Assembly (NCBI RefSeq): GCF_002775205.1
Contig: NC_036456.1
Coordinates: forward strand, 18,829,976 to 18,893,975
Source: Xiphophorus maculatus
Lineage: Eukaryota > Chordata > Actinopteri > Cyprinodontiformes > Poeciliidae
Length of the DNA stretch: 64,000 nucleotides
Direction: 5' to 3'
Within the stretch, counting starts at the first letter, position 1; each line of letters starts with the position of its first letter. A program made the position numbers and the translations under genes. Below, in pieces: positions 164 to 38,317 of this stretch. The notes under the pieces are model-generated. The model was not told where the DNA came from, did no database searches, and saw nothing but the letters and a program-made list of their open reading frames with translations.

Positions 164-410
164 CTTCAATTTCTCAAGCCTTTCCCTCATTTGCTGTTGC
201 TTTTCCTTCAACTCTGCCTGAAAGTGGGATAAAATTGACGTTTAGTTTCCCTCACAAACATAAGGACAGGTAGGTGGCGCACTGTCAAAATTTCTAAAAA
301 CAATTGTGCACCAATATTTCTAATAAACTTACCAGCTGCCCCTTGTCTAACAGGGAGTTTGTGAAGCCGACCAGGCTGAGCAGAGTGCAGATCAGGAACA
401 AGCCTTTCAT
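164..410 (-). CDS. Cluster gene A, partial: short secreted helical protein (5' part)
   Basis: Two coding exons are visible. Exon 1 (410-333, 26 codons) starts MKGLFLIC and is almost entirely a signal peptide, ending LLDKGQL before GTAAGT. Exon 2 (217-164) is an 18-codon charged helix ending RERLEKLK before GTGAG. Both junctions are phase 0. A non-coding first exon (about 545-513) is spliced to an acceptor at 434-436, just upstream of the ATG. The remaining exons lie beyond the left edge of the window, so length and C-terminus are unknown. The leader is closely similar to that of pseudogene N near 38.3 kb, and the 18-codon exon resembles the second exon of gene M. The family is unrecognised; a secretory-pathway location is inferred from the leader only. 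Confidence 0.6.
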
Positions 411-570
411 GGTTCTGGTAGCTGATGCCTTGACTGTTATGGAGAAGAAAATAAAAATAGTTTTTGAACAGACATATTTTAATTTTAAACCTTTAACACT
501 ATTTGAACTTACCAGAAATGTGGCGATGGTAATGAATGAAAAACACTGTGGGGAGGCTCAACACTGAGGG

Positions 571-580
571 TTTTTATATA
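571..580 (-). promoter_or_regulatory. TATA box of gene A
   Basis: The minus strand reads TATATAAAAA about 30 bases upstream of the inferred non-coding first exon of gene A, whose donor GTAAGT lies at 512-507. Unlike most of the cluster, no good interferon-stimulated element is visible within the next few hundred bases. Confidence 0.55.
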
Positions 581-1129
581 CTGTTCATCAGAAGTAACCT
601 CCCTAATTGTGATCTTTTGGGGGGGTGAATGTGGGTGAGATTAGCTGTCACTATGTGCACATTGCACTGTGTAACCTGTTGTGTTATGTTTGTGTTTCAT
701 TTACAGAGAAACCATGTTTTTCAATTTCAGTTTAATCTACATTTAACTAAAATCACTGGTGCACATAAACTTACTTTCTAAACAGTAGTTAAGTAATACT
801 GTACTTTTCAACAGTGCAGAGAAACGCATTTAAAGAATGAATTAATTTATTATTAAATTATCCACCATATAATGTCTTAAAGATACATTGTTTTCAAGAT
901 TGTGATATTTGATTAAATGAACACCATGGAGAAAAAGGTGTTCTTTATTTAATTTATTTTATAATAATTCTAATAATTTTATTACCTTTATTTGACCATA
1001 TAGTAATTTCCAAATGGGCCATAAGATTTGACTCATTTAAGTTTTTTAGACACATCTGTCTACTTTCCCACATGTTCCTGAAACTGGCTGTCCAACTGTA
1101 ACAATACCTGCAAAAAGAATAAGAAAGGG

Positions 1130-1310
1130 CCACTGGTCCCAACACCACTACATCCACACATTCACACACCAATGGTGGTCAGCTTCATAGTAACTACAGC
1201 TGCCCTGGAGCAGATTGACAGAAGTCAGGTTGCCATTGAATTGGCTACAATTGAGATTGCCAATTGCAACACTCAAGGCAGATTAAGTGTCTTGACTAAG
1301 GACACTTGAC
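1130..1310. repeat. Decayed dispersed fish repeat
   Basis: The stretch contains CACACATTCACACACCA and, about 110 bases on, AAGTGTCTTGACTAAGGACAC. This is a mutated form of the AAGTGTCTTGCTCAAGGACAC motif that recurs in fish genomes. The repeat class cannot be settled from the sequence alone. Confidence 0.45.
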
Positions 1311-2179
1311 CAAATTTAAAACCTAAATTTAAATTTAGGTAAATTTAGGAATCAAATAAACAGGCACTACATTCACATTTTCTAGGAGTCAAATCAGGTA
1401 CGTCATTTATATTTTCTACATCTTATTTTGTTTGCACAGAAATCTGTAAATGCCAAACCTTTAGTCACATGAAGGCAAACGGAATCAGGCACACCCTGCA
1501 TTCTTTACTTTCATTTTCCCAGAAGTTACCCGTGGCAGATCCATTTCTCAGGAAAGCAATAGTTACAGCATCAGCTACAGTTGAGAAATAAAATGGATTC
1601 CATTGAAGTACATGTACACTTCAAGTTCGGTATCTCTAGCAGAGGGTGGGGTTTACATAATGTCTTAGACGCTTTTAGGATTGTGCTGTTCTATTTCTCT
1701 TCAACGGCAATGTCAAACCAAATGGGTATTATCTGTTTATTTAGTTTGAACTATAAATCACACAAGATCTTAGCTCTGCAGGGTTTCCCGCAGTGTTTTA
1801 GAAGCCTGGCGGGCTACCAGGCTTTACTTGCCCCCCTCACCAGGTTGTGGGAAGCAACAAGTACTGATTGTTTATTTTAAAGGCCAGGGCTGCGCACCAA
1901 TTGTGCCATCCTCACCTGCTCTTCCAGCGCAGGTTGTGTGTCTCAGAATTTCTGTAACTCTGCACAGATCGGGCACAACACCTTTCATTCAAAATGGTCT
2001 ATTTGGAAGGTGTTCTTGAAGAGCAGCTTCACCTGTATATGATCCCTTTATGAAGTTTATTTCATACTTCAGGTTGCAACAAAACACACTAAACCATCTT
2101 TACAGTGAAACACTTTTGTGTAACTGTTTTTTTTTTTTTTTCATTCATCCACACCGCTTCCCGCCCATGTTTGGAGGCC

Positions 2180-3530: not shown

Positions 3531-4197
3531 TCACATAGTAGCTTCTGACTGTGCCAGGTTTTCTATAACCCTCTCCAGTTGTTTGGCCTTGTCTTCATAT
3601 TCTTGGATTCTTGCCTCTTCCCTTTCAAATTCTCTGATCGCATAAGCCAGAGTTTCCTTCATGAAGCCTTTTAGCTCCTTCATAAGTTCAGGTAGAGATC
3701 CACTGTTTGGCAGCAAGTTCTTTATAGTTCCTGTTAAACTGTCCATTAACTGCAAGACATCCTCAAGGAGATTTGGTAGGAAGGTCATGTCCACCATGTT
3801 GTCCACCTAGTGGGGAAAACGTGTAGTTTATGTAACAGTTAAAACTAAATAATTTGTAATGAGGTGATTATTTGTGTGTTTTACTCACTTTTCTCATTAC
3901 TGCATCCTGCTGTAGTTTCAGAATATTATCTCTGATCAATTTCTGTTAAAGAAATGCAAACATTTACAACCAGAGCAAACAGTTATGTCACATATTGACA
4001 ATGAGCTCAGAGAAACCGTGACTGTAATAACAGTCCTTTTAAAAAAACAAGTATTTCAAACTAGAAAAAATTACCAGCTTGTCTTCGTCTATCCACGAGC
4101 TTGCAGGGCAGAGCAGAGTCAGCAAAGTAAAAATGAGGAAAAGATGTTTGTTTTTATCGACACCAGCCACTCCTCTGCTACTGCTTAAAACTGCCAT
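3531..4197 (-). CDS. Cluster gene B, subgroup 1: 150-aa secreted helical protein
   Basis: Three phase-0 coding exons: 4197-4075 (41 codons), 3942-3889 (18 codons) and 3806-3531 (91 codons plus stop), all with consensus GT-AG sites. Exon 1 encodes a basic start (MAVLSSSRGV), a hydrophobic core (HLFLIFTLLTLLC) and a likely cleavage site after PASS. Exon 2 encodes the helix KLIRDNILKLQQDAVMRK. Exon 3 encodes two or three long amphipathic helices and ends NLAQSEATM, with neither an ER-retrieval signal nor a membrane segment. No cysteine follows the leader. It is most similar to F, G and I (leader LLTLLC.ASS, and an ending of the EN/TN/SN-LA type). A non-coding exon probably ends at 4346 (donor GTACAG). 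Family and function are unrecognised; secretion is inferred. Confidence 0.75.
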
Positions 4198-4641: not shown

Positions 4642-4653
4642 GAAAATGAAACT
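4642..4653 (+). promoter_or_regulatory. ISRE upstream of gene B
   Basis: GAAAATGAAACT is a perfect match to GAAANNGAAACT, the IRF/ISGF3 site. It lies about 450 bases upstream of the B start codon and about 240-300 bases upstream of its likely non-coding first exon. Confidence 0.55.
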
Positions 4654-6378: not shown

Positions 6379-7679
6379 TTACAGCTCTTCATGCTGGTGC
6401 TGGTGAGACTTTTTCAAAACGTTCAAAACCTCCTTCAGGCTTTTCCCCATGTTCTTCGCTTCTGAAGAGATCACCTTTTCCTTTAGGGTAAAATAAGTCC
6501 TGACACTTTGAATGAGTTTTTCTGAGATACGTATCACTGGATCATCCCCCGTTGACAGTTTTCTCAATTGTTGTATTTTAGGATAAAGTTCAAGCAGCTT
6601 CAAATCAAGCTGTTGTACTCCAGCTGAGATTCTGTACTTGCCTTCTGTCTGGAGGTAGAAATGAGATGTTTTAAAAAATTACCTTTGGATAAATAGTTTT
6701 TATAAACCACCTCAGAGTTATTATGCAATCAAAACTTTAGTTTATCACATTAAGAAATAGTGGTAAATACATAGAGTGATATATATTCTAAGCATTTATT
6801 CCTGTTGTCTTTTATGACTAAGTTTAATGAAAACCTCAAATTAATTTCCTCATAAAATACCAAAGTAAAAGAATCGGTAAATTCTTTTATCTATATATTG
6901 ACAGGAAAGACAACTGCCCCTCAGTGTAATGAATGTATATTATTAAATTAGTTATATATTCAAATCAAATAGAATAAAATAAATAAACTTTTGGATGTTT
7001 TATTTTAAACTTACTGATGCCTTTTTGTGTCCTTTAAAAGTTTAACAGACCCACCTTTTGTTCATACGCTTCATTCACTGCTTTCTGGAGATTTTTCATA
7101 AATCGTTCCTAAAACAAATAGATGAGGTAGACAATTAAGTGGACATTTAACAGGAAATGATGTGCATGCTGAGAAGCTTACGGTAAAGGATGTGACTTTT
7201 TGCACAAATATTAATTATTAACTTTACCAGTTGTTTCTCGTTAGTTAGAGATTGTGCTTCTGTCAAAAGTCTGGAGATGGTATCAACTCTGTTTTGTCTT
7301 TGTTTCTAACAGAGAAAAATAAAACAGAATTTTGACAACAAGCATTTATTTTTTGCATAATTTCTGAACCAACATGTGAGTAACACTCAGACCCACCTGA
7401 TATCCTATAGCTTGATCTAGCATTGCCCGAAAGGCTGCCTTGTACATGTCCTGAAATGCAGCAAACAGGAAGTAACATATAGCATAAAAGTGTAATTACA
7501 TAAATCCAAAATTTATTTAGTTTTAGGCAGAAAAGCTTAAGAAATGAAGGTCAGTTTACCAGATTAGCACCAAAATCCAGAGAGCTGACGGTGTCGGTCA
7601 GAAACACCAAACAGACGACGAGGGAAACGAGTTTGATGAGTCTGACTGAACTCTCTGCTTTGCCTGCAGATTCTGCCAT
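6379..7679 (-). CDS. Cluster gene C, subgroup 2: 191-aa helical protein ending HEEL
   Basis: Five phase-0 coding exons: 7679-7560 (40 codons), 7450-7397 (18), 7305-7228 (26), 7108-7055 (18) and 6648-6379 (89 plus stop). All junctions are GT-AG. Exon 1 begins MAESAGKAES and carries a hydrophobic leader (LVSLVVCLVFL) ending around TVSS. Exons 2-4 are charged helices, including the near-invariant KAVNEAYEQK. The last exon starts TEGKYRI, matching TEMKYRI in gene E. The protein ends HQHEEL; HEEL fits the PROSITE-type ER-retrieval pattern [KRHQSA]-[DENQ]-E-L. With a signal peptide this predicts an ER-lumen protein. E is the closest relative (same exon sizes, HDEL end). A non-coding exon upstream has a donor near 7800. 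The biochemical role is unknown. Confidence 0.78.
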
Positions 7680-9671: not shown

Positions 9672-9824
9672 TCATTTTAAGTTCAAAACTTCACAGCAGG
9701 TACAAAATGTGTGTTCATTGTGAAACAATTTATTAGTATGAACATATATCTGAGAAAAGATGTAGAAAGTTACCCGATATAGTGCTACAGTACAAAATAA
9801 CAGAGGAAGGAAAAATGTTACAAC
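9672..9824 (-). other. Untranslated remnant of the D membrane tail
   Basis: Directly after the gene D stop the same frame stays open for 50 codons. The first 25 or so resemble the H membrane segment (GTAGCA..TAT and GTA..TT blocks align without a gap), with hydrophobic residues preserved. The following bases match the J 3' untranslated region (TTCATACTAATAAATTG against TTCATACTTATAAATTG). This supports a single nonsense change in an ancestral membrane-anchored gene. Confidence 0.65.
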
Positions 9825-10326
9825 TCACACAGGATCATGAATCTTCAGCAGAGAATTTAAAGTCTTCAATGCATTCTCCAGTTTTGTCTCTGTTTCATTT
9901 GCTTTTCCAGTGTATAAATCTGTATGTAACAATATGTTTTGGTGGATTATCTGAAAGATTTTCTCTACGGTTTCAGCCATCCTTCTCATCAATGGTCCTC
10001 CACTTTTCCATTCCCAAATTTTAGGTAAATAGTTAAGCGTCTCCATATAAAACAGTGGTGTGTAAGCTTTAGCTTCAGCTGTTTTTTCTACCTGTTGGAA
10101 TAAAAAAAAAAAACATTTGTATAATCTTAGCATTCACATTTCTATACAGTGAACCCTCGTTTTTCGCGGGAGTTACGTTCCAAAAAGAAACCGCGATAGG
10201 CGAAATCCGCAAAGTAGGAACCTTTATTGTTTTTACAATAAAATACTCCATAATACATTGAAACCAAAGAACAAAACCTTTTTACAGGCCCAAACATTTG
10301 TTTATCAAATAAAAAGTACTGTGTAT

Positions 10327-10366
<40 letters not shown>

Positions 10367-11580
10367 ACTACTGTACTGTAAAATAATAATTTTAATATGA
10401 ACTGAAAGCGGATTCCCGTGCCCGAGTTGCGGAGATCAGCGCCGCCCCACCGCGACCTGAGTTATTGGATTAGAAAGGGAGAAAATAAAAAATGATTATG
10501 AAAAAAAACAAAAACAAAGTACAGTAGGACAAATAGTGACTCGCATGTATTTCACTGCACTTCTGACTGAGCCGCTGCATCCTGACTCCGCTCTGCAGCG
10601 GGTTTTTTCTTCTAAAGCTCGCGGTGCAGGTGTGTTTTTTCGAGAGAAGAACATAGTTATCGGTTGTTGTTGCCGCTCTTTTTTCTTCTGGGCAAAAAGA
10701 TTCTTATAAACCGACATGCCACCATCGATTATGTTAAATTTGGCAAGCTGTTTTACGTACGTGTAGGCCTACATATTAAACCGCAACGTTGTTGACACAC
10801 AGGTAGAGAAGAAGCGGAGAGACTGTTTAGCCAATCAGAATGCAGAACACAATGCACGATGCAAATTCGCGAAGCAGCGAGACCGTGAAAGGTGAACCGC
10901 GATTTAACGAGGGTTCACTGTAAATATTTTCTTGCTGACTTACCATCTGAGTAACATAAAGGTTGACTGACCCACCTTTTGTCTGTACGCTTCATCTACA
11001 GCTTCTTGAAGAAACTGCTGAAATAACTTCTGAAATTTACACAGAAAAGATGTGGATGTGAAAACTGGTCAGATATTTAATATAAAACTGTGTTTAGAAA
11101 AAAATACTGTCACTTTTTAAACCCTTGACAAAATAAATCCACATTACTTACAAGCTGCTTCTTGTTTGCCATAGAGTTTGCTATATCCAAAAGTGTTACA
11201 ATATGTTCTGTGCCACTTTCACTTTCTCTCTAATGAAGAAAAATTAACTTTATCAGACAGCTGTGGAGAATTTCTGAGACAGAAATTAAGCAAAAAGAGA
11301 CTTACAATGAGTCTGACTGATTCTCTTGTTCTCTGTATGCCATTTATCAACATGCGCTAGAATTTACAAGAAACACAGTTCCACAATTAATCAGGTACAG
11401 TTATGTATGTATTCCATATTAGTCAAAACACATTTACCAGTGAAAAGGCCAGTTTACCAGTGAATTATTTTCAAAATTCAGCGACAGACCAACGTGAACC
11501 AGAAACAGCAGGGAGACGATTCGGAAAAGGGTTTTGTTGAAGCTCAGAGCCTCCAGCCGTCTTCGTCCTGCTTCAGCCAT
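9825..11580 (-). CDS. Cluster gene D, subgroup 3: 190-aa helical protein with truncated membrane tail
   Basis: Five phase-0 coding exons: 11580-11458 (41 codons), 11356-11306 (17), 11229-11152 (26), 11029-10976 (18) and 10091-9825 (88 plus stop). Exon 1 begins MAEAGRRRLE and has a hydrophobic core (RIVSLLFLVHVGLSL). The third exon (SGTEHIVTLLD) and fourth (LQEAVDEAYRQK) match H and J closely. The last exon ends KIHDPV followed by TGA. In H the same IHDPV runs on into a membrane segment. In D the frame after the TGA still encodes a hydrophobic stretch similar to that of H. D therefore makes a soluble form or is on the way to loss. A TA-flanked MITE sits in intron 4. The promoter region is shared head to head with E. 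Function is unknown. Confidence 0.75.
10147..10920. mobile_element. Non-autonomous TA-flanked DNA transposon (Tc1/mariner-pogo type)
   Basis: The element opens with CAGTGAACCCTCGTTTTTCG and closes with the inverted CGAGGGTTCACTG. It is flanked by TA on each side (10145-10146 and 10921-10922). Internal GC-rich sequence around 10410-10900 and a long T run (about 10330-10359) contrast with the host intron. No transposase frame is present. The inverted ends plus a TA target duplication point to a pogo/Tigger-like MITE inserted in intron 4 of gene D. Confidence 0.8.
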
Positions 11581-11942: not shown

Positions 11943-11978
11943 AGTTTCACTTTCTGTTGTTTCTAAAGTTTCACTTTC
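11943..11978. promoter_or_regulatory. Tandem perfect ISREs shared by divergent genes D and E
   Basis: AGTTTCACTTTC occurs at 11943-11954 and again at 11967-11978. Read on the minus strand each is GAAAGTGAAACT, a perfect interferon-stimulated response element, and the two starts are 24 bases apart. They lie about 200 bases upstream of the non-coding first exon of D (donor near 11689, minus strand) and about 200 bases upstream of that of E (donor at 12230). A weaker AAAACTGAAAG lies nearer D at about 11753-11763. Confidence 0.75.
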
Positions 11979-12320: not shown

Positions 12321-13819
12321 ATGGCAGAAGCTGCAGGCAGACGATGGACTGTTATGAGAGTCATCAAATATCTGTTCCTCATCCTGACTCTGCTGTTTCT
12401 CCTTTACATCGGAAAGATACTCATATTTAACAACCCTGTGGTAAACAGCTTTTAAATATTCATTTCTTTCAAATCCATAATGTCTAAATGCACCTAATGC
12501 TCCTTCATGCATCTTCAGTTGACTTGTTTGTATGCTTTTGCTCATTTCAGGACATGTTGAAGGAAAGTTTTAAGGCGTTGTTAGAGGAATCAGTCAAGAT
12601 GAACGTGGGTCTTTTTTTTTTGTTCACATGTTGGCTGTGTTTCCTGCATGTGTTACAGTACAAAACTGCTGTGCATGTTGTGTCTATAATTTGATATGAA
12701 GTGAAGTGTCTATAAACTAGTGCAACAGCAGCAGTAAAAACATTCCTGTAATTTTAAAAGTTTTATTTTGTGCCATTAGAAAGAAGAGCAAAGTAGGCTT
12801 GAAACTCTTTCAAGACTTCTGGATGATGCAAAGTCCATGAAAACCAAGGAAGAGCTGGTAAATTCTTATTTAAATAAATTATGTAAATGGTTTATTTGAA
12901 AGTCACGTGTACAATTTGTGAATCTCCTTTCTGGTCAGTGACCATTCATGCTTAGTTTTGATTTGATTCAGTAAGTCATCAGACTTTTTTTTTTTGAAAA
13001 CCTGTAGGAAACTACTTTCTCCATGCTTCCAAATTGAGTGCTACGACAGAAAAATACTTTCTTTTTGTTTCTTTAAAAATGTTGTTGCTTTGTAACTTGC
13101 ATTGTTTTGTAATAAACCAAATCATAACATTTTATGATAATGATCAGTTTAAATAAACATTGGATTTGTATGCTAATAGTAACCGGCCTTAATAATAACC
13201 CTCGTTTCTGTATAAGAAATATATTGTTTATTGTTGTTTTATGTGAGGATCCCAATGACTCCACACAATATGACAAACAACGTTTGAGACTCAATTCTTT
13301 CCAAATTCCTTATTCTTGCTAAATGTAAACAGGGTTTGTTACACCAATGTAAGTACATTCTCACAAATATTCTTTCTCTGGTAAATTTCAGGAGATATTC
13401 AAGCAGACCCTCAGGAAAGCAGTGAATGAAGCGTTTGAACAAGAGGTGGGTTATGTTGCCTTTATGATGCTCAAAAGCTACCTGACTGGTAAACAAAAAC
13501 TGCACTTACTGTAAAACATCTGACTTCTTTTGTCTTCCTACAGACTGAAATGAAGTACAGAATTGCAGCCTCTATTGAACAGTTCAATGACAAGATAAAG
13601 GAGCTTAATCCCAGTCTGGAAATCGTGAAACGGGGATCAAAAACAGATCCAACAGCAAAGCGACTGGTGACAGTGGTGGAGCGTGCCATGAGAAGAGTGG
13701 AGGCCTTCTTAGAGCTGAGATGGTGGGCCTTTGCTGAAGGAGCAAAGTACACTGAAGAAAATCAGAATTACATTTCAAATGCTTTAAAATCCCAACGGGA
13801 TCAACATGATGAGCTGTAG
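12321..13819 (+). CDS. Cluster gene E, subgroup 2: 193-aa helical protein ending HDEL
   Basis: Five phase-0 coding exons: 12321-12440 (40 codons), 12551-12604 (18), 12780-12857 (26), 13392-13445 (18) and 13544-13819 (91 plus stop). The start MAEAAGRRW follows an acceptor at 12313-12315; a non-coding exon ends at 12229. Exon 1 has a strongly hydrophobic core (YLFLILTLLFLLYIG) that could be a cleaved signal or a signal anchor. Exons 2-4 are charged helices, with RKAVNEAFEQE paralleling KAVNEAYEQK in C. The last exon is a long amphipathic helix region ending DQHDEL. HDEL is a classical ER-retrieval signal, so an ER-lumen location is predicted. AATAAA at 14053-14058 is a likely poly(A) signal. 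The tandem ISREs lie upstream. Family function is unrecognised. Confidence 0.8.
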
Positions 13820-14575: not shown

Positions 14576-15217
14576 TTACATATTTTTTTTGTCTGCTAGG
14601 TTTGTTACAAGAGTTTCCAGTTGTGTCAGCTTCTCTGTACTGTTCTTGATATTTGCAGCTTGATTCAGCAGCTCTTTAATTGCAAAACCTTTCATTTGCT
14701 CCAGGAAGTCGATTATCTCTTTCACGATTTCTAGCAAAAAATGTGGCACTTTTCCCATCAGCGTTTCCACCAAACTGTTCAATATCTGTGTGACATCATC
14801 CATAATCCCAGGGATGAAATTAAGGTCAACTGTGTTAATTGCCTGAATGGAAAATAAAAACACCAGCAGCTTTTTAAACGAGGTGACATTTAAAGTGTTG
14901 ATTTTTATTTTAAAAAGTTGTTTTGCTTACTTTTCTCCTGGCGGCATTATGTTGCAGTTTCTGAATGTTTCTTCTTATTTCTCTCTGCAAATTGAGTGAT
15001 TATTTAAAATCAGAAGTAAAAGATTTAACACAACAAACAACCAACAAAAGTATATGTTAAAGATTTGCTTGATGTCAAAATCTATTTCAAATTGCTTGTT
15101 TATTTTAATGAAATAAAAGTTTACCAGCTCGTCGTCGTCAATCAAAGAACTTGCAGAGCAGAGCAGAGTCAGCAGAACGAACATGAGGAAAACAGCTTTA
15201 ACTCTTAAAACGGCCAT
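14576..15217 (-). CDS. Cluster gene F, subgroup 1: 137-aa secreted helical protein
   Basis: Three phase-0 coding exons: 15217-15125 (31 codons), 14984-14931 (18) and 14842-14576 (88 plus stop). The leader MAVLRVKAVF is followed by LMFVLLTLLCSASS, then the acidic LIDDDEL just before the donor, as in B (WIDEDKL). Exon 2 is the basic helix REIRRNIQKLQHNAARRK. The last exon has two amphipathic helix blocks, an NST glycosylation sequon and the end NLADKKNM, without a retrieval signal or membrane segment. A non-coding exon ends at 15347 with donor GTATGA, the same donor wording used by G and I. F lies head to head with G, about 1.3 kb between the start codons. Secretion is inferred; function is unknown. 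Confidence 0.75.
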
Positions 15218-15472: not shown

Positions 15473-15484
15473 GAAACAGAAACC
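15473..15484 (+). promoter_or_regulatory. ISRE-like site upstream of gene F
   Basis: GAAACAGAAACC differs from GAAANNGAAACT only in the last base. It lies about 125 bases upstream of the splice donor of F's non-coding exon, a typical position for an interferon-stimulated promoter. Confidence 0.55.
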
Positions 15485-16219
15485 CATGGCTGTTTGTCTT
15501 ATTTAGGATTTTTGCTTTCGTTTACTGGCACGTACATCCTTCCATAGGATTTTGAGGTTTTTGCTTTTTGCAGACTTAAAAAAATAGACGTATACTGATG
15601 TTAAAATTCGAAACGTGATGAATTTTTAAAATGGTTCAAGTCAGTGAAATGCTAAAAGACATGCAGTGAAAGCGAGTCTTGCACTAATATTGCACATGCA
15701 TGCATGAATCATTCCGTAAAGTTAAAACTGCTGTTTTAAGCCAATGCAAAATGAACCACAGCAACAACAGAAAAAGACACTTTTATGTTTCCAGGTTCCT
15801 GCAGCTCATGTTCAGTTAAAGTTGCCTCCTCTATAAATGCACTATTAATGCAATAACTTTTAGCATTCCAGCTTCTAAGAACTACATTTTCTTTTGCTGC
15901 TATTTTTCTAATGCACACAAAGGCAGAGGAACAATTATTTTAGACCTATGACAAACATTTCACATCCTGCAACTTCACTCTTTGCCTTCACAGCAGGTGC
16001 CACTGACTTCTGTAAATATTTGTCTGATCATCATTTCCTGAACCGGGGCTTCAGCTTCAGTTTCTGTGCAAAGCCAAAAATTTAGTTTCTGTAAAATTTC
16101 AAATATACTCCAGTTACCAAAACAAGTAATTTGGATAAGTTTCTAGCTTTCTGAGTTTACGTTTTTGTTTTGTTTTGTGTTTTTCATACGTGGATTAAGT
16201 AGCGTTGTCACTTTAAAGT

Positions 16220-16386
16220 GAAACTGAAAAGAGCAGAACCGTCCAATCACATGCTAAGGGTGTGTTGTGTGTGTGTGTGGGTGTGTGTGTGTGTGTGTGT
16301 GTGTGACAAGCCCAGTATATTTAAAACATTTATTGTCCTTACTTTCATTTCTGCCACCTGTAGAGCAGCTCTCTCTCCAACACAAG
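16220..16386 (+). promoter_or_regulatory. Gene G promoter: ISRE, GT repeat, TATA, non-coding exon
   Basis: GAAACTGAAAAG (16220-16231) is an ISRE-like site. A GT microsatellite (about 16262-16305) separates it from a TATA-like TATATTTAAAA (from 16316). A short non-coding exon ends at 16386 (CACAAG before GTATGA). The same arrangement, nearly identical, recurs upstream of gene I, showing that promoter and gene were copied together. Confidence 0.65.
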
Positions 16387-16548
16387 GTATGATTAAACTC
16401 CCATTTGAACAAACTGGTAAAAAACATTTATCACATACTATCTGCAACAGGAAATATCATAACATAAATGCCTTACCTCTGACCTGACTCGCTGTCAAAT
16501 ATATATGTTTGTAAATATTTTTGTTTCAGAAGCAATTTCAGAGCAGTG

Positions 16549-17260
16549 ATGACAGCGTTGTCCTCGTTCAGAAGCAGAGGAGTGGCTGGGCTCAGAAAAT
16601 ATAAAGACCTTGTCTTCATGATTACTCTGCTCAGCCTGCTCTGTCCTGCAAGTTCATGGATAAGCAAGAAGGAACTGGTATACTTGTTCTTATTTTTAGA
16701 TTAGAGAACAATCATAGTTTTAAAAAGTTTATAATATATGCATGTTTTATTCCCCCTAGTTACTTTTCTTCCCTTGTAAATGTTTGTATCTTTCCTTTCT
16801 GGATTTTCAGCAAGAAATGAAGGAAAATATTCAGACGCTACAAGAAGATGCAGCAATGAGAAAAGTAAAAAAAAAAAACAACCAAACAATAACAAACAGC
16901 ATACATCTTTATAAATATAAAGTCATGGAGTGCCACAATTAATTAATTGTTATTTTAATTAATTATTTTGTTTGTTTGTTTCAGGTTGACAACAAGTTGG
17001 ACAAGGCTCTACTGACTTTGCTCCTTGAAGAAGCTACACATGCTATAGACCTTTTAACTGAATATCTTAAGAGGTCGTTACCAAAGCTTCAATTTCCCGT
17101 TGAAGAACTAAAGGACCTGAAGAAATTTCTGGTGGAAAGCCAGGATTTTATGCCAAAAAAGTTTCAGAACGAAGCCGAACAAGTCCAGCAATATGAAGAC
17201 ACACTCGCATATTTAAAGACGTTTGTATCAAATTTAGCAGAGGAGCATGTTGACTTGTAA
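16549..17260 (+). CDS. Cluster gene G, subgroup 1: 152-aa secreted helical protein
   Basis: Three phase-0 coding exons: 16549-16677 (43 codons), 16811-16864 (18) and 16985-17260 (91 plus stop). The start MTALSSFRSRG precedes the hydrophobic core LVFMITLLSLLC and a cleavage-like PASSW. Exon 2 is QEMKENIQTLQEDAAMRK, identical to that of gene I. Exon 3 begins VDNKLDKALL and ends NLAEEHVDL. HVDL only loosely resembles a KDEL-type signal and does not fit the [DENQ]-E-L pattern, so ER retention is uncertain. There are no cysteines after the leader. Gene I is a recent duplicate, about 4.5 kb away. AATAAA motifs at 17425 and 17546 are candidate poly(A) signals. Gene H faces it convergently. Function is unknown. 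Confidence 0.8.
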
Positions 17261-20697: not shown

Positions 20698-20867
20698 GAA
20701 ACTGAAAAGAGCAGAACTGTACTGAACGTCATCCAATCACATGCTAAGGGTGTGTGTGTGGGTGTGTGGGTGTGTGTGTGTGTGTGACAATGCCAGTATA
20801 TTTAAAACATTTATTGTCCTACCTTTCATTTCTGCCACCTGTAGAGCAGCTCTCTCTCCAACACAAG
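20698..20867 (+). promoter_or_regulatory. Gene I promoter: ISRE, GT repeat, TATA, non-coding exon
   Basis: GAAACTGAAAAG (20698-20709), a TG repeat (about 20749-20786), TATATTTAAAA (from 20797) and a non-coding exon ending at 20867 before GTATGA copy the gene G promoter. Differences are an 11-base insertion (ACTGAACGTC region) after the ISRE and a shorter GT tract. Confidence 0.65.
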
Positions 20868-21027
20868 GTATGATTAAACTCCCATTCACACAAACTGATA
20901 AAAAATTTGTCACATACTATCTGCAACAGGAAATATCATAACATAAATGCCTTACCTCTGACCTGACTCTCTGTCAAATATATATGTTTTTAAATATTTT
21001 CGTTTCAGAAGCAATTTCAGAGCAGTG

Positions 21028-21720
21028 ATGACAGCGTTGTCCTCGTTCAGAAGCAGAGGAATGGTTGGGCTCAGAAAATATAAAGACCTTGTCTTCATGA
21101 TTACTCTGCTCAGCCTGCTCTGTCCTGCAAGTTCATGGCTAAGCAAGGAGGAACTGGTATACTTGTTCTTATTTACAAATTAGAGAACAATAGTAGTTTC
21201 AAATAGTTTATCATGTACATTTGTTGTTTTTTCCCTAGTTATTTTATTTCCTTTGCAACTTATTGTAAATGTTTGTATCTTTCCTTTCTGGATTTTCAGC
21301 AAGAAATGAAGGAAAATATTCAGACGCTACAAGAAGATGCAGCAATGAGAAAAGTAAATAAAATACACCACACAAATCTTTATAAAGTCATGGAATGCAC
21401 AATGAATACATTTGATTATTTATTTGAATTTTTGTTTGTTTCAGCTTGCCAACAAGTTGGACATGGAGCTCCTTTCTTTAGTCCTCAAAGAAACTAGGGA
21501 TATTCTAGACATTGAGAGTGAAATTCTTCATCGGTTATTTTCAGGTTATCTATATCCCGTTGGAGAATTAAGCGACATGAGAAGTTTCCTGGTAAAAAGA
21601 CATACTTTTTTGACAAAAAAGTTCCAAAATGAAGCCGAACGGGTGAAAAAATATGAAGACACACTCGCAAATATGGAGACGTTTGTAGCAAACTTAGCAG
21701 AGAAGCATGTTGACTTGTAA
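21028..21720 (+). CDS. Cluster gene I, subgroup 1: 152-aa secreted helical protein, recent copy of G
   Basis: Three phase-0 coding exons: 21028-21156 (43 codons), 21300-21353 (18) and 21445-21720 (91 plus stop), the same sizes as G. The leader differs from that of G at only a few residues (GMVGLRKYKD against GVAGLRKYKD; WLSKEEL against WISKKEL) and exon 2 is identical. The last exon is much more diverged: it begins LANKLDMELL, changes the middle (RLFSGYLYPVGEL), and keeps the distal KKFQNEAE and YEDTLA blocks. The end is NLAEKHVDL. This uneven divergence suggests change concentrated in the helical domain. It is convergent with J. Function is unknown and secretion is inferred. Confidence 0.8.
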
Positions 21721-23208: not shown

Positions 23209-24258
23209 TTATAAGTATGAAAATATACAAGAACAGATGCAGGAACATATCCAATAAAGTGCTAATGCACAAAAAAAAGAGATTGGTTTAATTTCAGAAA
23301 GATAGGGAATTATCTTCCAGAATTTGATTTTATTCAAAGTATATGTCAGTTCTCCTTCAACCTCCTCTAAATCTCTATTGAAGACGTCTCTCTTTAACTT
23401 TAAATAAATCCTATATACTTCAAGGCGTTGCTCTATGGCTTTTCTTAACTTTCTCACCAATGAATGAGACAATGCTGACTTTTGTTGCCATTCAGGATCA
23501 TCCAGGATCTTACGAAGATTTTGCATCGTCAAAGTAAAATAAGATGATTTTTCGACCTTTAGGAAAAGAAAAAAAATATATCAATATTTTCTTAACTTCT
23601 TACAAATAACTAACATCTGAGTAATATGAATGTAGACTGACCCACCTTCTGTCTGTGTGCTTCATCTACAGCTGCTTGAAGATATTGCTGAAATATTTCC
23701 TGTAAATAACCAGAGAAAGAAAGTAGATTTGAAAACTGTAAGACTGTGTGTTCAGAAAATACTGTAGTCACTGTGTTAACCTTCGACAAAATAAAGCCAT
23801 ATTACTCACAAGATGCTTCTTGGTTTCCAGAGGATTTGCTTCATCCAAAAGTGTTAAGATAAATTCAGTGCCACTTTGGACTTCTGTCTAATAAAAACAA
23901 CAAAAAAATCGTTATTAGCCGACATTTGATTTCTGTTTGTTGGTAATCTAATGTGGAGAATTTGTCACACAAATATGAGCATAAAGGAAACCTACCAGGT
24001 GTGTGATCAATTTTTGTACATTATTCCAGCTTTCCACAAACTGTTTCCGAAGCTTCCAAGGAAGACAGACAAAAGATTTTGTCAGTACAATTATGAAAAT
24101 ATTGTACATAAACCAAATATAGATTTGAAAAGCCAGTTTACCAGATAATCTCCAGAATCCAGTGACTGTCCGATGTGAACTAGAAACAGCAGAGCAACGA
24201 TTCGAAAAAGGTTTTTATTGAAGCTCAGAGCCTCCAGTCTTTGACTTGCGTTTGCCAT
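23209..24258 (-). CDS. Cluster gene J, subgroup 3: about 217-aa helical protein with Cys-rich membrane tail
   Basis: Five phase-0 coding exons: 24258-24142 (39 codons), 24052-23996 (19; an alternative acceptor gives 15 codons from 24040), 23887-23810 (26), 23699-23646 (18) and 23556-23209 (115 plus stop). The leader MANASQRLEAL with RIVALLFLVHIGQSL matches D and H. Exon 2 (ending QKLITHL, donor GTAGGT) is clearly different from the 17-codon exon of D and H. The last exon starts VEKSSYF, has a basic helical centre (RKLRKAIEQRLEVYR) and ends in a hydrophobic segment with the cysteine-rich stretch WICSCICSCIFSYL, which could be palmitoylated. J is the duplicate partner of H, sharing about 0.9 kb of upstream sequence. 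Function is unknown. Confidence 0.72.
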
Positions 24259-26070: not shown

Positions 26071-26917
26071 CTAATCCTCACCGTACTCCTGAGCTTTTAT
26101 GAAACTCCAAATATCATCAATTTCTTTCTGATTTGCCTTTACAGTTTCAGCAAAGTCTTTTCTTTCTTTGACTAAAAAATCTGTGATGGCACGCGAGAGT
26201 CCTTGTAGGGACGTGGAGTTTGTTGTTGCTGCTTTCAGCTGCTTCAGCGTGGGATGAAACTCCTCAAGTTCTTCCTCAAAGACGATTGAGGCAACTTTAA
26301 TCCTGTTCTCAAATTCTTTCTTTTGGGGGGAAACAGAAGAGAAACTTTTATTAGATCTCTGTAGAGCATGTTTATGTATTAGACAATCTCAGAGACACTT
26401 TGTCATGATTTATACTGAAATTATTAATAAAGGTGTCATAAAAGCTTTTCAGACTTAATCAATGACTCACCTTCTTGTCAGCTGCATCCTCCAACCCGCC
26501 CTCATAGTATTCCTGAATTATTTTCTGAAATGTGCAAATATAGAGCTGTGTTACAGGATGAGAGCTGCAAAGGCATTTTTAACAATATAAAGACCATAAC
26601 TACGTCATGTTTTAGAATTTAAGTGGTGATAACTGCGCAGTGAAAACAACATTCACACTGTAAATAAAACAGAATAAACTGGTGTCCACAATTTTTTGAT
26701 TATTACTAATTTATTTTGTGTCAGACCCAATTTAAGTTGATATATATATAAACAAAATAAAGCTGAATATGTCAGAAAAACATTTTACCAGGTATCTTGT
26801 GTCAATCAGAGAGTTTGCTACAGAAACTAGACCCAGCAGAGCGACGATGAAGAGCAGTCCTTTGGTTGGTCTGATGCCAAACAATCCTCTGTTTCCATAC
26901 GGAGCTGATCTGATCAT
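26071..26917 (-). CDS. Cluster gene K, subgroup 4: 143-aa secreted helical protein
   Basis: Three phase-0 coding exons: 26917-26789 (43 codons), 26524-26471 (18) and 26319-26071 (82 plus stop). The start MIRSAPYGNRG follows an acceptor (TTTCCTAG) about 20 bases upstream, and a non-coding exon has its donor at 27028. The leader GLLFIVALLGLVSVANS is typical of a cleaved signal peptide. Exon 2 is KIIQEYYEGGLEDAADKK. The last exon is helical, has an NST sequon at about residue 95, and ends AQEYGED. It has no membrane tail or retrieval signal. Gene L is its closest relative (aligned exons, same sequon position). Two ISREs lie upstream. Function is unknown; secretion is inferred. Confidence 0.78.
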
Positions 26918-27145: not shown

Positions 27146-27173
27146 AGTTTCACTTTAATATAGTTTCTCTTTC
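27146..27173 (-). promoter_or_regulatory. Double ISRE upstream of gene K
   Basis: On the minus strand GAAAGAGAAACT (27173-27162) is a perfect ISRE, followed by TAAAGTGAAACT (27157-27146), one base off the consensus. The pair lies about 75-100 bases upstream of the non-coding first exon of K. Confidence 0.7.
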
Positions 27174-29652: not shown

Positions 29653-30581
29653 CTACAGCAAATCTTTGCCATAATGCATGGCTTTTATGAAGTTCCAAAT
29701 ATCATCAATTTCCTCCTGATGTGCCTTTTTATTTTTAGCAAAATCTTTCCTTTTTTTGACTAAGAGGTTGGTGATGGAGCTCATGAGTCCCTTCAGAGAC
29801 GTTGAGTTTGCTGTTGCAGCTTTCACTTGATCCAACATGGGATGAAACTTCTCCAGCTCTTCTTCAAAGATCTGCGAGGCGACTTTCAGCTGGTTCTCAA
29901 AATCTTTCTTTTAAAAAGAAAAAACGTCATTGACAGATATTCTATGCAGTGTGTTACATCTTTTAATTTCCCTCTACCCACTATATTGACCTGAAAATAA
30001 ACTAAATAAATGATAGAAGAAAAGCTTTGATTAACTCACCTTCTTATCAGCTGCTTCCATCAGTCCACCCTCATAGTATTCCTCAATTATGTTCTGAAAT
30101 GTTCAGAAATAAGGGTTTACATGAGATGAGTAACATTGTAACAGCATATCTGAGTTCCACTGTTCCACTGTTTGAAGAGTTTCTGTCCATAACTGTATGA
30201 TTATGAAATTAAAAACAAATAAATAGAAAGAAATAATTTGCAAAAAACTTGGACTACAATACGAGCTATCAATGAGTTCATTAAATTATATATTTCCTAT
30301 TCAAAGAGGCTAATTTCCAGTCTTTAAAAGCACAACTGAAACAAAAATGCACTCTTTATTTTATCTCTAATTGCAAATTTCAAAAGCTCCTCTTAAAACA
30401 TGGAGATTAGTTATTTTAGATATAAAAGAAAATTAAAGTGAAACTGATTTACCAGGTAATCTTTGCTAATCATTGAGTTGGTGACAGAAACCAGAGCCAG
30501 AAGAGAGAAGATGAGGAACAATCCTTTGGCAGGTCTGACACCAACCAGACATTCGCTTTCAGGTAAACCTGCTGCAGCCAT
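29653..30581 (-). CDS. Cluster gene L, subgroup 4: 145-aa secreted helical protein
   Basis: Three phase-0 coding exons: 30581-30453 (43 codons), 30093-30040 (18) and 29907-29653 (84 plus stop). The start MAAAGLPESECL precedes the leader GLFLIFSLLALVSVTNS. Exon 2, NIIEEYYEGGLMEAADKK, is close to that of K. The last exon aligns with K throughout (FEEELE.FHP, NSTS.LKGL, EIDDIW.FIKA), keeps the NST sequon at about residue 95, and ends MHYGKDLL. A non-coding exon has its donor at 30701. K and L look like an older tandem pair. The promoter resembles that of M, with which it is head to head. Secretion is inferred; function is unknown. Confidence 0.78.
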
Positions 30582-32458: not shown

Positions 32459-32596
32459 GAAACAGAAACTGCTTTAAAGGTAAGTCAGCTGATAAGACTC
32501 AGGTAGCCTGAGGAGTTTTTAAAGTATTTGCTGTGCGTCATATTGTCACTTGGTGAGTTTTCTCCTGAACAGCAGCTCCTCCTTTTTATACACCAG
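32459..32596 (+). promoter_or_regulatory. Gene M promoter with perfect ISRE and non-coding exon
   Basis: GAAACAGAAACT (32459-32470) matches the ISRE exactly and is preceded by another GAAAC (32454-32458). A non-coding exon ends at 32596 before GTAAGACC. Its ACAGCAGCTCCTCCT wording is shared with the antisense non-coding exon of L, so the L and M promoters are related. Confidence 0.7.
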
Positions 32597-33239: not shown

Positions 33240-34169
33240 ATGATGATGACGGGTGTTAGAGGAGCGACTGGAATCAGAACCACAAAAATCCTGTTCCTAA
33301 TTTTCCCTCTGTTGGATCTCATCCGCTTCACAAATTCCCATTCTGCACAGAAACACTTGGTAAATTATGGAGAATTAATCAGAACGTAATGTACTGCAGC
33401 ATTTGTAGAATGATTTTGTTGTGACATCACATGTTTAAGTGTGACTAAGTTTCCCTTTTCACTCTAAATCTGCAGACAGCATTACAGGAATTGTGCCAGA
33501 AAACAAAAGAAGATCTTGAGAAACTGAAGGTGAGCGTACAAACAATTAGAAAAACGACACATGTTTTTTGCTTCATCTTATTATAAACACATGTTGATTT
33601 CTCAGAAAATTGAAATATTACTTATAAGCACCAAAAAATGATTTTTAATAAATAAGTGGACTTCCTGTAAAAAATGTTTTTCTTTGAATATAATTTGTTT
33701 TTCTTGGCTTCTCCACCTTGTGGCAGGTGTCAGTGACTTCCTGTCAGTGACAATCTGCAGACTGTCTTGATTGGATGGTCAATCCCATAACATTCCAGCA
33801 ATAAAATCTATTTTTTATTGGTTTTATGTATTTTAAAAATTTTCTGAGAAATACCAAATGTTTACTCTCTTTTTTAAACCTATTTACGTTTTGCTTGAAT
33901 GTACTTTTAATATGTGCTTTTTTGTTTGATAAACAAGCCTTATCGGAAATATATTCAAAATACTCAGTGTGACTAAAAATGTTTCTTTTCATCTTCATCA
34001 GAAAACACATCAGTTTGAATTCAGGACTCCATTAGATCCAGCTGATGAAGGTGTCAACATAATAAATCCAGTGAAAGCACTGATGAAGAAATATGATCAT
34101 AACCTTCCTCATAGTCATCCTCCAGTCCAACCAAAAGTTTCTCTGAGGGAAAAAGATCATCGCTGTTGA
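33240..34169 (+). CDS. Cluster gene M, subgroup 4 leader with atypical basic C-terminus (113 aa)
   Basis: Three phase-0 coding exons: 33240-33359 (40 codons), 33476-33529 (18) and 34002-34169 (55 plus stop). The start MMMTGVRGATGIRTTK is followed by the hydrophobic core ILFLIFPLLDLI, and the GIRTTK.LFLIF wording aligns with K and L. Exon 2 (TALQELCQKTKEDLEKLK) resembles the 18-codon exon of A. The last exon is unlike any other member: short, rich in proline, histidine and basic residues, and ending KDHRC. Either it has diverged strongly or the true 3' exon differs from this model. Three in-frame ATGs open the frame; the first is given. Function is unknown. Confidence 0.6.
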
Positions 34170-34179
34170 CTGCAAGAGT

Positions 34180-35550: not shown

Positions 35551-35559
35551 AAGGTCCCG

Positions 35560-36085
35560 TGGCCATGATTACTTCAATCAACGCACCCAAAGACTCTAAA
35601 ATAATTTCACTCTAAGGTATTTCAGCTAAGTCACGTACACATCTGAAACCATATGTGTATTTAGTAACAAATTAATTAAACTACCTGAATATAAAATGAA
35701 CTGTTACAAGTATTAACTGCTATTGAAAAGAGGAGCTAGTGCTAAAGTGAGAACTAAGAAATGAATAGTGTCTCAGCAGTTTCAGTTTTAAACTGTTTTT
35801 CTTTTGTTTCTGCTATAAACAATCGCTGTGGCATGTGATAATAGTTTGACATAAACAACAACTGGAACCTGCCTGCAGCCTCACAGACCAATCAGCTTTC
35901 ATTTTCAATAATGTTTCAAGTTATGCTCTCAGGAAAATGTGGAGAAAACGTACAGAGTATTTCTTATTTGTACTGTCACAATATCTAAAAAGAAATGTGG
36001 GAAATTAGAACAAGCGATAGATGCACCGACTGGTTGCAACAACTTTTCAAGGCAGTGCTGCCTTGAAAAGAAAAACTGGCAATAT
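35560..36085 (-). pseudogene. Relic copy of the L promoter/leader region
   Basis: This stretch parallels 30575-31360 in order. Shared blocks are GACTCTAAAATAATTT, GGAGCT.(G/A).T, TCTCAGCAGTTT (CCTCAGTAGTTT in L), TTTTGTTTCTGCT (TTTCGTTTCTGCT), TGTGGCATGTGAT, TTTCATTTTCAA and GTTGCAACAAC (GTTACAACAAC). GTGGCCATGATTAC matches the L start region (GCAGCCATGATTCC on the plus strand), but the leader codons are not maintained. It is a partial, decayed duplicate without downstream exons nearby. Confidence 0.6.
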
Positions 36086-36089
36086 CTGG

Positions 36090-37650
36090 TTCTATGCACT
36101 TTGAGACACTAATTTAAAGCATGCAGGATCAAAAAGGTTTAATTATTTTCTGGGGTTTTTTTCAGAATATTTGCCATTAATGTTACACTGTTAAAATGTT
36201 TTCAATCAATATTTCTGACATTGTTTTGTCTTACACAGAAAGTACAAATATGGGCATTTTTGTCAAATGACCTTAACCACAAAATTTCCACTGCAGACAT
36301 CAGTCATCAGAATGAAACTGAAGGAACTTATTGTGGTTTAGACCCCAGATACCAACAAGCCACAAGACAGCTGGTGGCATCATTCAAAGGACCTTTTCCA
36401 CATGTCCACTAGATTTATTTTTTAGATTGCATGTGATAGAGTGAGAGTCTATAAGATAGAATGACACAAAGTAAGACACAGTAGTGGTTCTATCATACTG
36501 TGGGGATGGCTTTCTTTTGCAGGGTCAGTGAAGTTAGTCATACTAGATGGGAAGGTGAATGGGACTAGATACACAACACTGAATGCAGAAAACGGCTAAA
36601 AGTTACAAAATACCAGAAACGTGAGAGGAGTTTAACCTTGTAGCTAACAGGACAAAGCTCCAAAATATATGGCTAAGAATCAATTGGTAGAGGACAAAAA
36701 AAAAAATCCAATCTTAAAACGTCTCCAGCTGTAAATGCATTGAAGATGAAAAATTGCTGAGTCAGTGCACTGAACATAAATGCACTTTCAATGTGGTATT
36801 TAAATAAAACATGAAAAAAACAGAATTTTCTTCAAAATAATCCACCACCCTGTACTGGTATTTCATCTTAAATTTAAATACAATTTAAGCGTAAATTTTA
36901 TGCGTTTCTTTTGAAAGGCACTGTAACATAATACTGTCAGTATTGAACAATATGTGTTTCTGTGTTTACTTACATAACAACATTGTCTGACGTGAGTTAA
37001 ACGAGAACAACACAGCTGCTATTGACATGAGTTCAATTACCACTTAAATATTATACTCAGTATGAAATCATTTTCAACTAACCAGAAACAGCACAGAGCT
37101 AGATGTTGAAAAGTTTGCTGTTTTATTTCACAGTAATTAAATTAATGTTGTTTCCTGTTATTTTGTCAGTGTGGTAAGTATAAAAATGTAAAGCTTTCTC
37201 AAGGCTTAAACTGTCATAACCAGCATTCTACAAATTACCCATTGAGTTGAATAAAAAAATATTTTTTTATTTTTAAACATACCCCACAATTGTATTTAAC
37301 CAATATTGTCAAAATTGATGACATGCTAAAATTAGTGTAATTTTAAATATAATTAAACTTTCAGGACAGAAACAACAATCAAAATTATCTCTGGCAACTT
37401 CATTTCATATTTTTTTTCATACAAGCATTTTTATCAACGTTACATTTAAAACATCACCATCAAAAACTTCTCTAGAGTAATAAAAAATGTCGTAGTTCTT
37501 GATAATGTTACATCTCGATAAGGTATTGCAACTGTATTCAGCAGTTTATGATATTAAGCAACTTCCAGAAACGTTAGAATTATGCTGCACATTAAGACAT
37601 AATAAAAGGCTAAATTATGCTGTTATAGTTATAACAGCATAATTATAGTT
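36090..37650. other. Non-coding stretch before pseudogene N
   Basis: No supported exon. The frame at 36221-36412 is open for 63 codons but has neither splice context nor similarity to the cluster. Confidence 0.4.
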
Positions 37651-37657
37651 ATAGAAG

Positions 37658-38317
37658 TTATAGTTTAGCCTGCTCTTCTTCCTGAACCTTGAGAAAGTCC
37701 CACGTTTGTCTTATTTTCTGATTGATTTCCTCTATCAGTAGATGACGGTTTTCAATCTGGAACTCCTCACTCTGACGAGGAAAAAAAAATAGATCTTTAT
37801 CGTATAGCAAATAGAGATTAAGATCTTAAAAATTATGATTATATTATTTATATCACCTTCAATTTTATGTATTGCAGCATGAACATCACACAAATCCGAC
37901 TTAGTAAAGAATTTGCATCACTGACTAAAAATACAACAGAAATCTTTCAAAAGCAAACTAACTGTGAGTTTTATGATTATTTTTTTTAGCTGTGGCACAA
38001 AATAGTCAGTTCTTCCACTGTCTTGTAAAGTAAAAGAATGTAGCTACTTTTAAGCATGAAAACATTATGACTCACCTTCAGTCTCTCAAAGAGTCATTTT
38101 GTTTTTTCAATAGTTTCACGGAGTTCAGTCTGCAAATCAACAGTGAAAATATATATTTGGTTAAGTTATTAAAGTAGACTGCATCAAAAATGTAAGTATT
38201 GTACTTTTTTTCTATAAGCAGGTTAATCAATACATTATGTACCAGCTGTTTGTCAAACTGTGAACTTGTGCAGCATAAGAGGCTTAGCAGAATAAAAACA
38301 AGGAACAAGCCTTTAAT
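37658..38317 (-). pseudogene. Cluster pseudogene N, relative of A
   Basis: Three exon-like blocks are kept: leader 38317-38243, helix exon 38129-38076 (54 bases) and a last exon 37771-37658, each with usable splice signals (the leader donor is GTACAT). The leader matches gene A (ACCAGAACC.TTAAAGGCTTG wording, then LLSLL), but the start codon ATG of A is ATT here, and the frame upstream meets a stop without another ATG. The helix exon has an in-frame TGA at 38096-38094 (TELRETIEKTK, stop, LFERLK). The last exon encodes NQKIRQTWDFLKVQE, recalling NQKEIDDIWSFIKAQE in K. A possible extra exon near 37860-37930 is unclear. Two independent lesions make loss of function very likely. Confidence 0.75.

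Follow-up and report, generated by a model that had tools for sequence, protein, structure and literature searches.

The gene cluster

The first 39 kb of a 64,000-nucleotide stretch of Xiphophorus maculatus DNA (contig NC_036456.1, forward-strand positions 18,829,976 to 18,893,975; the whole stretch is called the window below) are occupied by a tandem cluster of small genes, each with a leader exon and further helical coding exons. A preliminary description had counted at least 13 genes in these 38 kb. Eleven of them (B to L) are complete; gene A is cut by the edge of the window and runs off base 1, M has a doubtful last exon, and N is a broken relic. Both strands were scanned for phase-0 exons bounded by AG...GT, for leader exons and for last exons of helical type, and the gene models were built from these scans and from joined translation. 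The window is A+T-rich, with a GC fraction of 0.33-0.41 in 4-kb steps.

The genes follow a common plan, in which a leader exon is followed by one or more 18-codon exons, sometimes a 26-codon exon, and a helical last exon. Six genes have three coding exons (B, F, G, H, K and L) and five have five (C, D, E, I and J). All splice junctions used are AG...GT and of phase 0 in the joined translations, and the penultimate coding exon of every gene from B to M (12 of 12) is 54 nt long, exactly 18 codons; gene A also has one 54-nt exon. A 78-nt (26-codon) exon is present in 5 of 5 five-exon genes, together with an extra exon of 54 nt in C and E, 51 nt in D and I, and 57 nt in J (18, 17 and 19 codons, respectively). 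The modular phase-0 architecture first proposed, with three-exon and five-exon members on one plan, is thus confirmed by exon sizes and junction phases. Each complete frame is interrupted by two to four phase-0 junctions and yields a protein of 137-217 residues. At least one intron carries an in-frame stop in each of the 12 genes B to M, so the proteins exist only if the introns are spliced out. Non-coding first exons, absent from the preliminary description, are likely in all genes from C to M, judging from proposed GT donors 91-162 bp 5' of the ATG in C to L and 643 bp in M; upstream of A or B no clear donor was found. The proteins are charged (K/R/D/E make up 23-38%), and cysteine is absent past residue 45 in B to H, K and L.

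Among the three-exon genes, B (3531-4197, minus strand; exons 4075-4197, 3889-3942 and 3531-3806) encodes 150 residues and matches G and F at 44%. Gene F (14576-15217, minus; 15125-15217, 14931-14984 and 14576-14842) is the shortest in product, at 137 residues. Genes G (16549-17260, plus; 16549-16677, 16811-16864 and 16985-17260) and H (21028-21720, plus; 21028-21156, 21300-21353 and 21445-21720) each encode 152 residues, H matching G at 69%; upstream of G lie AGTGAAACTGAAAAG at 16217-16231 and a likely non-coding first exon ending at 16386. Genes K (26071-26917, minus; 26789-26917, 26471-26524 and 26071-26319; 143 residues) and L (29653-30581, minus; 30453-30581, 30040-30093 and 29653-29907; 145 residues) each have an N-glycosylation sequon at residue 95.

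The five-exon genes are C (6379-7679, minus; exons 7560-7679, 7397-7450, 7228-7305, 7055-7108 and 6379-6648; 191 residues), D (9825-11580, minus; 11458-11580, 11306-11356, 11152-11229, 10976-11029 and 9825-10091; 190 residues), E (12321-13819, plus; 12321-12440, 12551-12604, 12780-12857, 13392-13445 and 13544-13819; 193 residues), I (18003-19093, minus; 18974-19093, 18807-18857, 18627-18704, 18466-18519 and 18003-18353; 217 residues) and J (23209-24258, minus; 24142-24258, 23996-24052, 23810-23887, 23646-23699 and 23209-23556; 217 residues). Gene E has a long N-terminal hydrophobic segment. The last intron of D, at 884 nt, exceeds those of C, E, I and J (89-406 nt) and contains a stretch (10147-10920) with inverted ends, CAGTGAACCCTCG... 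and ...CGAGGGTTCACTG, which looks like a non-autonomous DNA transposon.

The remaining members are incomplete or uncertain. The 5' part of gene A (164-410, minus) comprises a leader at 333-410 (MKGLFLICTLLSLVGFTNSLLDKGQL) and an 18-codon exon at 164-217, with TATATAA 170 bp 5' of the ATG and the remainder beyond the window; by BLAST it matches M, L, H, G, F and K (E 2e-8 to 1e-4). Gene M (33240-34169, plus) has a leader (33240-33359) and an 18-codon exon (33476-33529) that together match A at 51% and L at 44%. Its proposed 55-codon last exon (34002-34169) has a non-helical look and showed no match to the family; it may have been misread or have decayed. Relic N (37660-38318, minus) retains a leader at about 38250-38318 that lacks an ATG, an 18-codon exon (38081-38134) with an in-frame stop, and a helical last exon at about 37660-37773 ending in EEQAKL. 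Between M and N, positions 35700-35900 resemble the region upstream of L, with no recognisable leader after it, and are possibly a second relic promoter. Elsewhere in the window, 2150-2330 resembles a tRNA-derived short interspersed element and holds a GGGTTCGACTCC box, which we take to be a motif of such elements. A synaptotagmin-4/11-like gene with C2 domains lies at 41692-47370 on the plus strand (best PDB match synaptotagmin IV, E 2.1e-38) and is a possible synteny anchor for locating the cluster in other fish.

Relatives in other fish and the unity of the family

Relatives were sought with the joined protein of E and with profiles of the three-exon and five-exon types. These searches reach only proteins that share short words with the query, and one profile search scored the 7987 candidates that shared most words. 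Joined E returned a single relative, P0001 (E 1e-59, 61% identity, 183-184 residues), which runs unbroken over all four junctions on a contig of 966 nt, against an ATG-to-stop span of 1499 bp for E in the window. The two profiles returned 12 and 13 proteins, and 25 distinct relatives (P0001-P0025, P0001 recurring) were found overall. Nineteen of them keep the joined architecture across the intron positions (P0001-P0010, P0013-P0019, P0021 and P0024), and five are single-exon open frames (P0011, P0020, P0022, P0023 and P0025). The alignments are gapless between P0003 and I (217 residues), between P0013 and G (152 residues, 61%), and between P0014-P0018 and K or L (143-145 residues). Other matches are those of C to P0001 (37% over 185 residues), I to P0002-P0004 (73-80% over the whole length), J to P0006 (53% over 221 columns), K to P0014 (77% over 143 residues) and L to P0016 and P0017 (70-76%).

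Twelve of the 19 junction-spanning relatives come from named fish, of ten species in the genera Gambusia, Poecilia, Poeciliopsis, Girardinichthys, Goodea, Xenoophorus, Ilyodon, Crenichthys, Fundulus and Maylandia. Ovalentaria includes both Goodea (Cyprinodontiformes) and Maylandia (Cichliformes). The other seven (P0001, P0007-P0010, P0017 and P0018) lie on short contigs of 957-1364 nt that span the junctions, the pattern expected of spliced transcripts; since many of the 12 named-fish entries are gene predictions, these seven give more independent support for splicing. Contigs of this sort may derive from the species of the window itself or from one close to it, in which case some of these relatives may be paralogues of the window genes. 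Over one exon each, P0020 matches G, P0022 matches F and P0011 matches J at 96% identity, the match of P0011 covering the last 105 residues of J; P0022 and P0023 match the last exon of F at 94-96%, and P0025 its leader at 100%. In Ataeniobius toweri, a predicted protein on a 10.7-kb contig (P0012) strings C/E-type exons onto B/F-type exons. It is probably an annotation fusion of adjacent cluster members, and its exon order suggests the same gene neighbours in Ataeniobius. Genes B to L are real genes, not chance open frames.

Similarity by BLAST is strong within the three-exon type and within the five-exon type. A comparison of the two profiles gave a probability of 95.5 (E 1.6e-8), and the hhalign score of 57.1 stands against a mean of 12.4 and a maximum of 19.8 for 100 column shuffles and 17.1 for the reversed profile. 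With the leader exons removed, the score fell to 37.1, whereas 100 shuffles reached at most 19.4 and the reversed profile 13.6. The two types are homologous and form one family.

No known family was recognisable in it, as had been supposed at the outset. Profile scans of Pfam and the PDB gave no credible match shared by many members, and ten five-exon relatives had no match in NCBIfam, a prokaryote library. The best matches of an 11-member profile were designed helical bundles, and a match to the macrophage colony-stimulating factor profile (E 0.44) is at chance level. The profile search for relatives, suggested in the preliminary description, returned 13 named fish proteins labelled only 'uncharacterized' or 'hypothetical', for which the cluster now supplies gene models. 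Searches of open-licence PubMed Central articles found no description of the family, and the portions consulted of a review of fish interferon-stimulated genes (PMC13030082) contain nothing matching. The cluster is best read as a tandem, probably lineage-restricted family of Ovalentaria fish, undescribed in the sources searched.

Structures were predicted for two relatives, P0013 and P0001, from alignments of 9 and 10 sequences. The P0013 model has a leader helix followed by a hairpin of helices spanning residues 40-92 and 97-151 (53 and 55 residues); its mean predicted local distance difference test score (pLDDT) is 70.8, with 10-residue means of 72-85 over residues 41-150, and its predicted template modelling score (pTM) is 0.49. 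The P0001 model has a leader helix and four further helices, with 10-residue pLDDT means of 48-84. The fold search proposed earlier, run with Foldseek on these models, gave no PDB match at E 0.001 or better, and a second fold search with the P0013 model (VIA) gave many tied generic hairpins.

Promoter sites, carboxy-terminal signals and sequence evolution

The preliminary description had claimed sites of the interferon-stimulated response element (ISRE) type in the promoters, and for most genes these occur above chance. The window contains 10 copies of the ISRE core GAAANNGAAAC, where shuffling predicts 1.22, and nine of the ten lie in bases 1-40000. The form GAAANNGAAA lies within 600 bp 5' of the ATG in 10 of the 13 genes A to M, compared with 77 of 404 other 600-bp windows (19%) and 2 of 12 downstream stretches; the shuffle mean is 1.08 and none of 1000 shuffles reached 10. 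The background in other windows is higher than that of shuffling, so the shuffle result alone overstates the excess. Within 1200 bp upstream, a site occurs in 12 of the 14 genes A to N, against 114 of 456 windows in 40-64 kb. The match counted for M, 18 bp from its ATG, is a splice-acceptor pyrimidine tract; without this match, 9 of 13 genes have a site (p ~1e-4), and when this match is dropped and D/E and G/H are each counted once, 7 of 11 units do (p ~0.0015). Individual sites include two ISRE cores, GAAAGTGAAAC, at 11944-11978 (minus) in the region shared by the divergent genes D and E; a core GAAACAGAAAC at 15473-15483 (plus), 256 bp from the ATG of F; an ISRE-type site GAAACTGAAAA at 20698 upstream of H; a core GAAAGAGAAAC at 27163-27173 (minus) upstream of K; and a second GAAACAGAAAC at 32459-32469 (plus), 138 bp 5' of the donor of M's proposed non-coding first exon and a better site for M than the acceptor match. 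For most genes the predicted sites are close to the putative promoters, as is characteristic of interferon-stimulated genes.

The carboxy-terminal signals, which were missing from the preliminary description, bear most on function. Gene C ends in HEEL and E in HDEL, both of the type that mediates retrieval to the endoplasmic reticulum (ER). P0001 also ends in HDEL, with a three-residue gap relative to E about 10 residues before the end, and a leader combined with a K/HDEL-type terminal tetrapeptide is found in C, E and P0001 only. The probability that at least 2 of 11 termini match [KRHQSA][DENQ]EL by chance is ~6e-5, as calculated from composition with the kinship of C and E ignored. Genes G and H end in HVDL, the Goodea relative P0013 in HAEL and the cichlid relative P0024 in QAEL. 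Genes I and J and relatives P0002-P0006 have a C-terminal hydrophobic segment (19-residue mean hydropathy 2.19-3.09). The leader of I and J looks cleavable, so these proteins would be anchored once. In gene D a TGA stands where I runs on, and an in-frame hydrophobic stretch lies behind it (9740-9830, minus strand), which makes D either a candidate soluble protein or a candidate for readthrough; the tail is missing from P0009 and P0010 as well, so a soluble form is not peculiar to D. An N-x-S/T sequon is present in eight of nine K/L-type proteins (K, L, P0014, P0015, P0017, P0018, P0019 and P0021) and is lost in P0016. By alignment it lies near the predicted helix break of P0013, a position that would fit a luminal or extracellular site.

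Ratios of replacement to silent divergence (dN/dS) between paralogues were estimated pairwise by the Nei-Gojobori method with bootstrap limits. For the last exons, ratios over eight pairs ranged from 0.22 to 0.78, and the limits lay below 1 for K/L (0.22; 0.10-0.43), C/E (0.26; 0.05-0.63), B/F (0.51; 0.23-0.89) and I/J (0.40; 0.06-0.73), with dS above 1 in three of these four pairs. The last exons of G/H (0.62; 0.33-1.12), D/I, D/J and B/G gave ratios below 1 that were not significant. Limits below 1 were also obtained for the internal exons of C/E and B/F and for the leader of D/J. Ratios were near 1 for the internal exons of I/J (1.04; 0.54-2.08) and the leader of C/E (1.08; 0.57-2.19), and the four replacement changes in the G/H leader, with no silent change, allowed no ratio to be formed. 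Pairwise Nei-Gojobori comparison, with dS high in several pairs, found no positive selection.

The 5' exons showed less silent divergence than the last exon in G/H (0 against 0.36 of silent sites, p 6e-6), I/J (p 5e-6), D/I (p 0.01) and C/E (p 0.04), and the difference was not significant for D/J, K/L, B/G and B/F; counts were rounded and the eight tests are uncorrected. G (16049-17260) and H (20528-21720) are 92% identical over the upstream 500 bp and 97-100% over coding exons 1 and 2, but intron 1 agrees at 84% and the last exon at only 73%. Such a pattern would result from gene conversion, or from a promoter-leader block having recently been copied onto an older last exon. The family had been called fast-evolving. 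The divergence of its members, relic N, the homogenised 5' ends of G and H and the faster last exons in four of eight pairs (p<0.05) agree with that label, but the pairwise ratios of the last exons show no positive selection.

Possible function and comparison with known systems

From these features we infer that the cluster is probably an undescribed, lineage-restricted, interferon-responsive family of helical secretory-pathway proteins. Most members are likely to be switched on by IRF/ISGF3 in the interferon response, and their leader exons are likely to direct them into the secretory pathway. On balance we lean, by no great degree, towards the whole description of a tandem, lineage-restricted helical family of interferon-induced secretory-pathway effectors.

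How such effectors might work can be proposed only tentatively. The small alpha-helical proteins would enter the secretory pathway through the leader exon; those of the three-exon type would fold as an antiparallel helical hairpin and those of the five-exon type as a four-helix bundle. Changes at the C-terminus would set their place along the route. C and E would be retrieved to the ER by HEEL and HDEL, and G and H perhaps by HVDL; I and J would be anchored in membranes by the hydrophobic tail; K, L and perhaps B, D and F would be released. Once induced by interferon, they would use exposed helical surfaces to bind envelope proteins of viruses or cargo proteins of the host and, acting in the ER, at membranes and outside the cell, would block the folding, budding or entry of viruses. 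Since the frame survives the gain or loss of a whole helical exon of 18 or 26 codons, the binding surface could change. This mechanism is a doubtful part of the proposal; equally doubtful is the broader scheme of an interferon-driven helical-bundle scaffold that gave rise to antiviral effectors by the swapping of C-termini (ER-retrieved, anchored or secreted) and the addition or loss of phase-0 helix exons.

Several points weigh against these interpretations. The molecular target is a guess. ISRE cores are short motifs; a strict site is missing from the 900 bp upstream of C and of J (a looser match, AAAAGTGAAAGT, lies at 248 bp in C), and the single site of I is ~800 bp away, so induction may not be family-wide. 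With respect to sorting, HAEL of P0013 fits HXEL but HVDL of G and H and QAEL of P0024 do not; KEEL occurs internally twice in the 11 joined proteins, as often as the motif occurs at their ends; B, D, F, K and L carry no retention signal; and the leader of E may be an uncleaved anchor. P0001 may be a paralogue rather than an orthologue of E, and its five-exon model is of low confidence (mean pLDDT 64.3, pTM 0.45).

The proteins could instead be secreted helical proteins, lipid-binding or membrane-active in the manner of exchangeable apolipoproteins or ApoL, with microbes or lipid particles as their targets and control by interferon an incidental trait. The charged, largely cysteine-free helices, the leaders and the affinity of the 11-member profile for designed helical bundles suit this alternative, but HDEL/HEEL ends and hydrophobic tails are unsuited to circulating lipid carriers and apolipoprotein families are absent from the Pfam matches; we consider it unlikely. 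We give somewhat less credence to secreted helical ligands with membrane forms, of a four-helix cytokine or ligand/decoy-like kind, of which soluble D and anchored I and J would be alternative forms. The four helices after the leader in the five-exon model and the occurrence of both soluble members (D, P0007-P0010) and anchored ones (I, J, P0002-P0006) are as expected of such ligands. The colony-stimulating-factor match that would point the same way is, however, at chance level, ER-retrieved members would not signal, and tandem turnover would be unusual for a ligand of one receptor.

A third alternative, rated no higher than the ligands, is an ER or secretory housekeeping family, chaperone- or matrix-like, that expanded in live-bearing and related fish to serve secretion by particular tissues, its ISRE-like sites being chance occurrences or relics. 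Named members are mainly Cyprinodontiformes, many of them live-bearers, and the phase-0 exon plan resembles that of secretory matrix genes; Fundulus and Maylandia, however, are not live-bearers, and the frequency of ISRE-type sites upstream of the genes (10 of 13, compared with 77 of 404 for other windows) is poorly accounted for by chance. That the cluster consists solely of mis-called exons or pseudogenes, as relic N, the doubtful last exon of M and the possibility that most named relatives are gene predictions might suggest, is scarcely credible given 19 further proteins that keep the joined frame and dN/dS below 1 in several pairs, and the seven short contigs lead us to regard it as refuted for the family, M excepted.

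Interferon-stimulated genes confined to one lineage easily escape notice, since there is no named homologue from which to recognise them. The present cluster is compact and has relatives in fishes that are readily obtained (Gambusia, Poecilia, Fundulus and a cichlid), in which induction, location and antiviral effect are directly testable. If the proposed effector reading is true, the switch between HDEL-type, hydrophobic and free C-termini within one family would clearly exemplify the redirection of effectors along the secretory route. The phase-0 helix exons offer a simple system for studying how exon gain and loss reshape a bundle.

Two known systems share general properties with the cluster. 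The ApoL cluster comprises tandem, fast-turnover, interferon-inducible helical proteins, some with a leader; it was not matched in the Pfam scans, and the cluster described here differs in its HDEL/HEEL C-termini. Tetherin/BST2 has an interferon-induced helical ectodomain with hydrophobic segments near both ends. I and J are likewise hydrophobic near both ends, but would be anchored once if the leader is cleaved, and carry no recognised glycosylphosphatidylinositol signal; Tetherin/BST2 was not among the PDB profile matches listed.

Secretory calcium-binding phosphoprotein (SCPP) genes have a non-coding first exon, with the leader in exon 2, and are linked to SPARCL1 or to other SCPP genes; their products include P/Q-rich or phosphorylated proteins such as ameloblastin. 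The synaptotagmin-4/11-like gene at 41-47 kb is the only other gene recognised in the 64-kb window. According to the part of the literature consulted, virtually all SCPP introns are of phase 0, which lets exons be added or left out in frame (PMC6732285), and all coding introns of the cluster genes are likewise of phase 0. The cluster differs in its helical models and ISRE-type promoters and in composition (P+Q 4.6-11.3% and 0-2 S-x-E per protein in 11 genes); as neither P+Q nor S-x-E is enriched, membership of the SCPP family was set aside.

The gig1-like genes (PTHR38706), as described in the sections consulted of two papers, are fish-specific, occur in tandem copies, respond to interferon or virus, and have only a PANTHER domain named after an uncharacterised gene (PMC12247413, PMC7316828). 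In the same account, three salmon gig1-like genes hold the whole reading frame, of 222-240 residues, in a single exon, and identity with gig1 was set aside for that reason (PMC12247413). The cluster genes, compared here by description only, have three or five coding exons and encode 137-217 residues. Fish gig1-like genes are the nearest to the cluster in kind and SCPP genes the nearest in gene plan, and each departs from it in a tested feature, the single coding exon in the one and the protein composition in the other.

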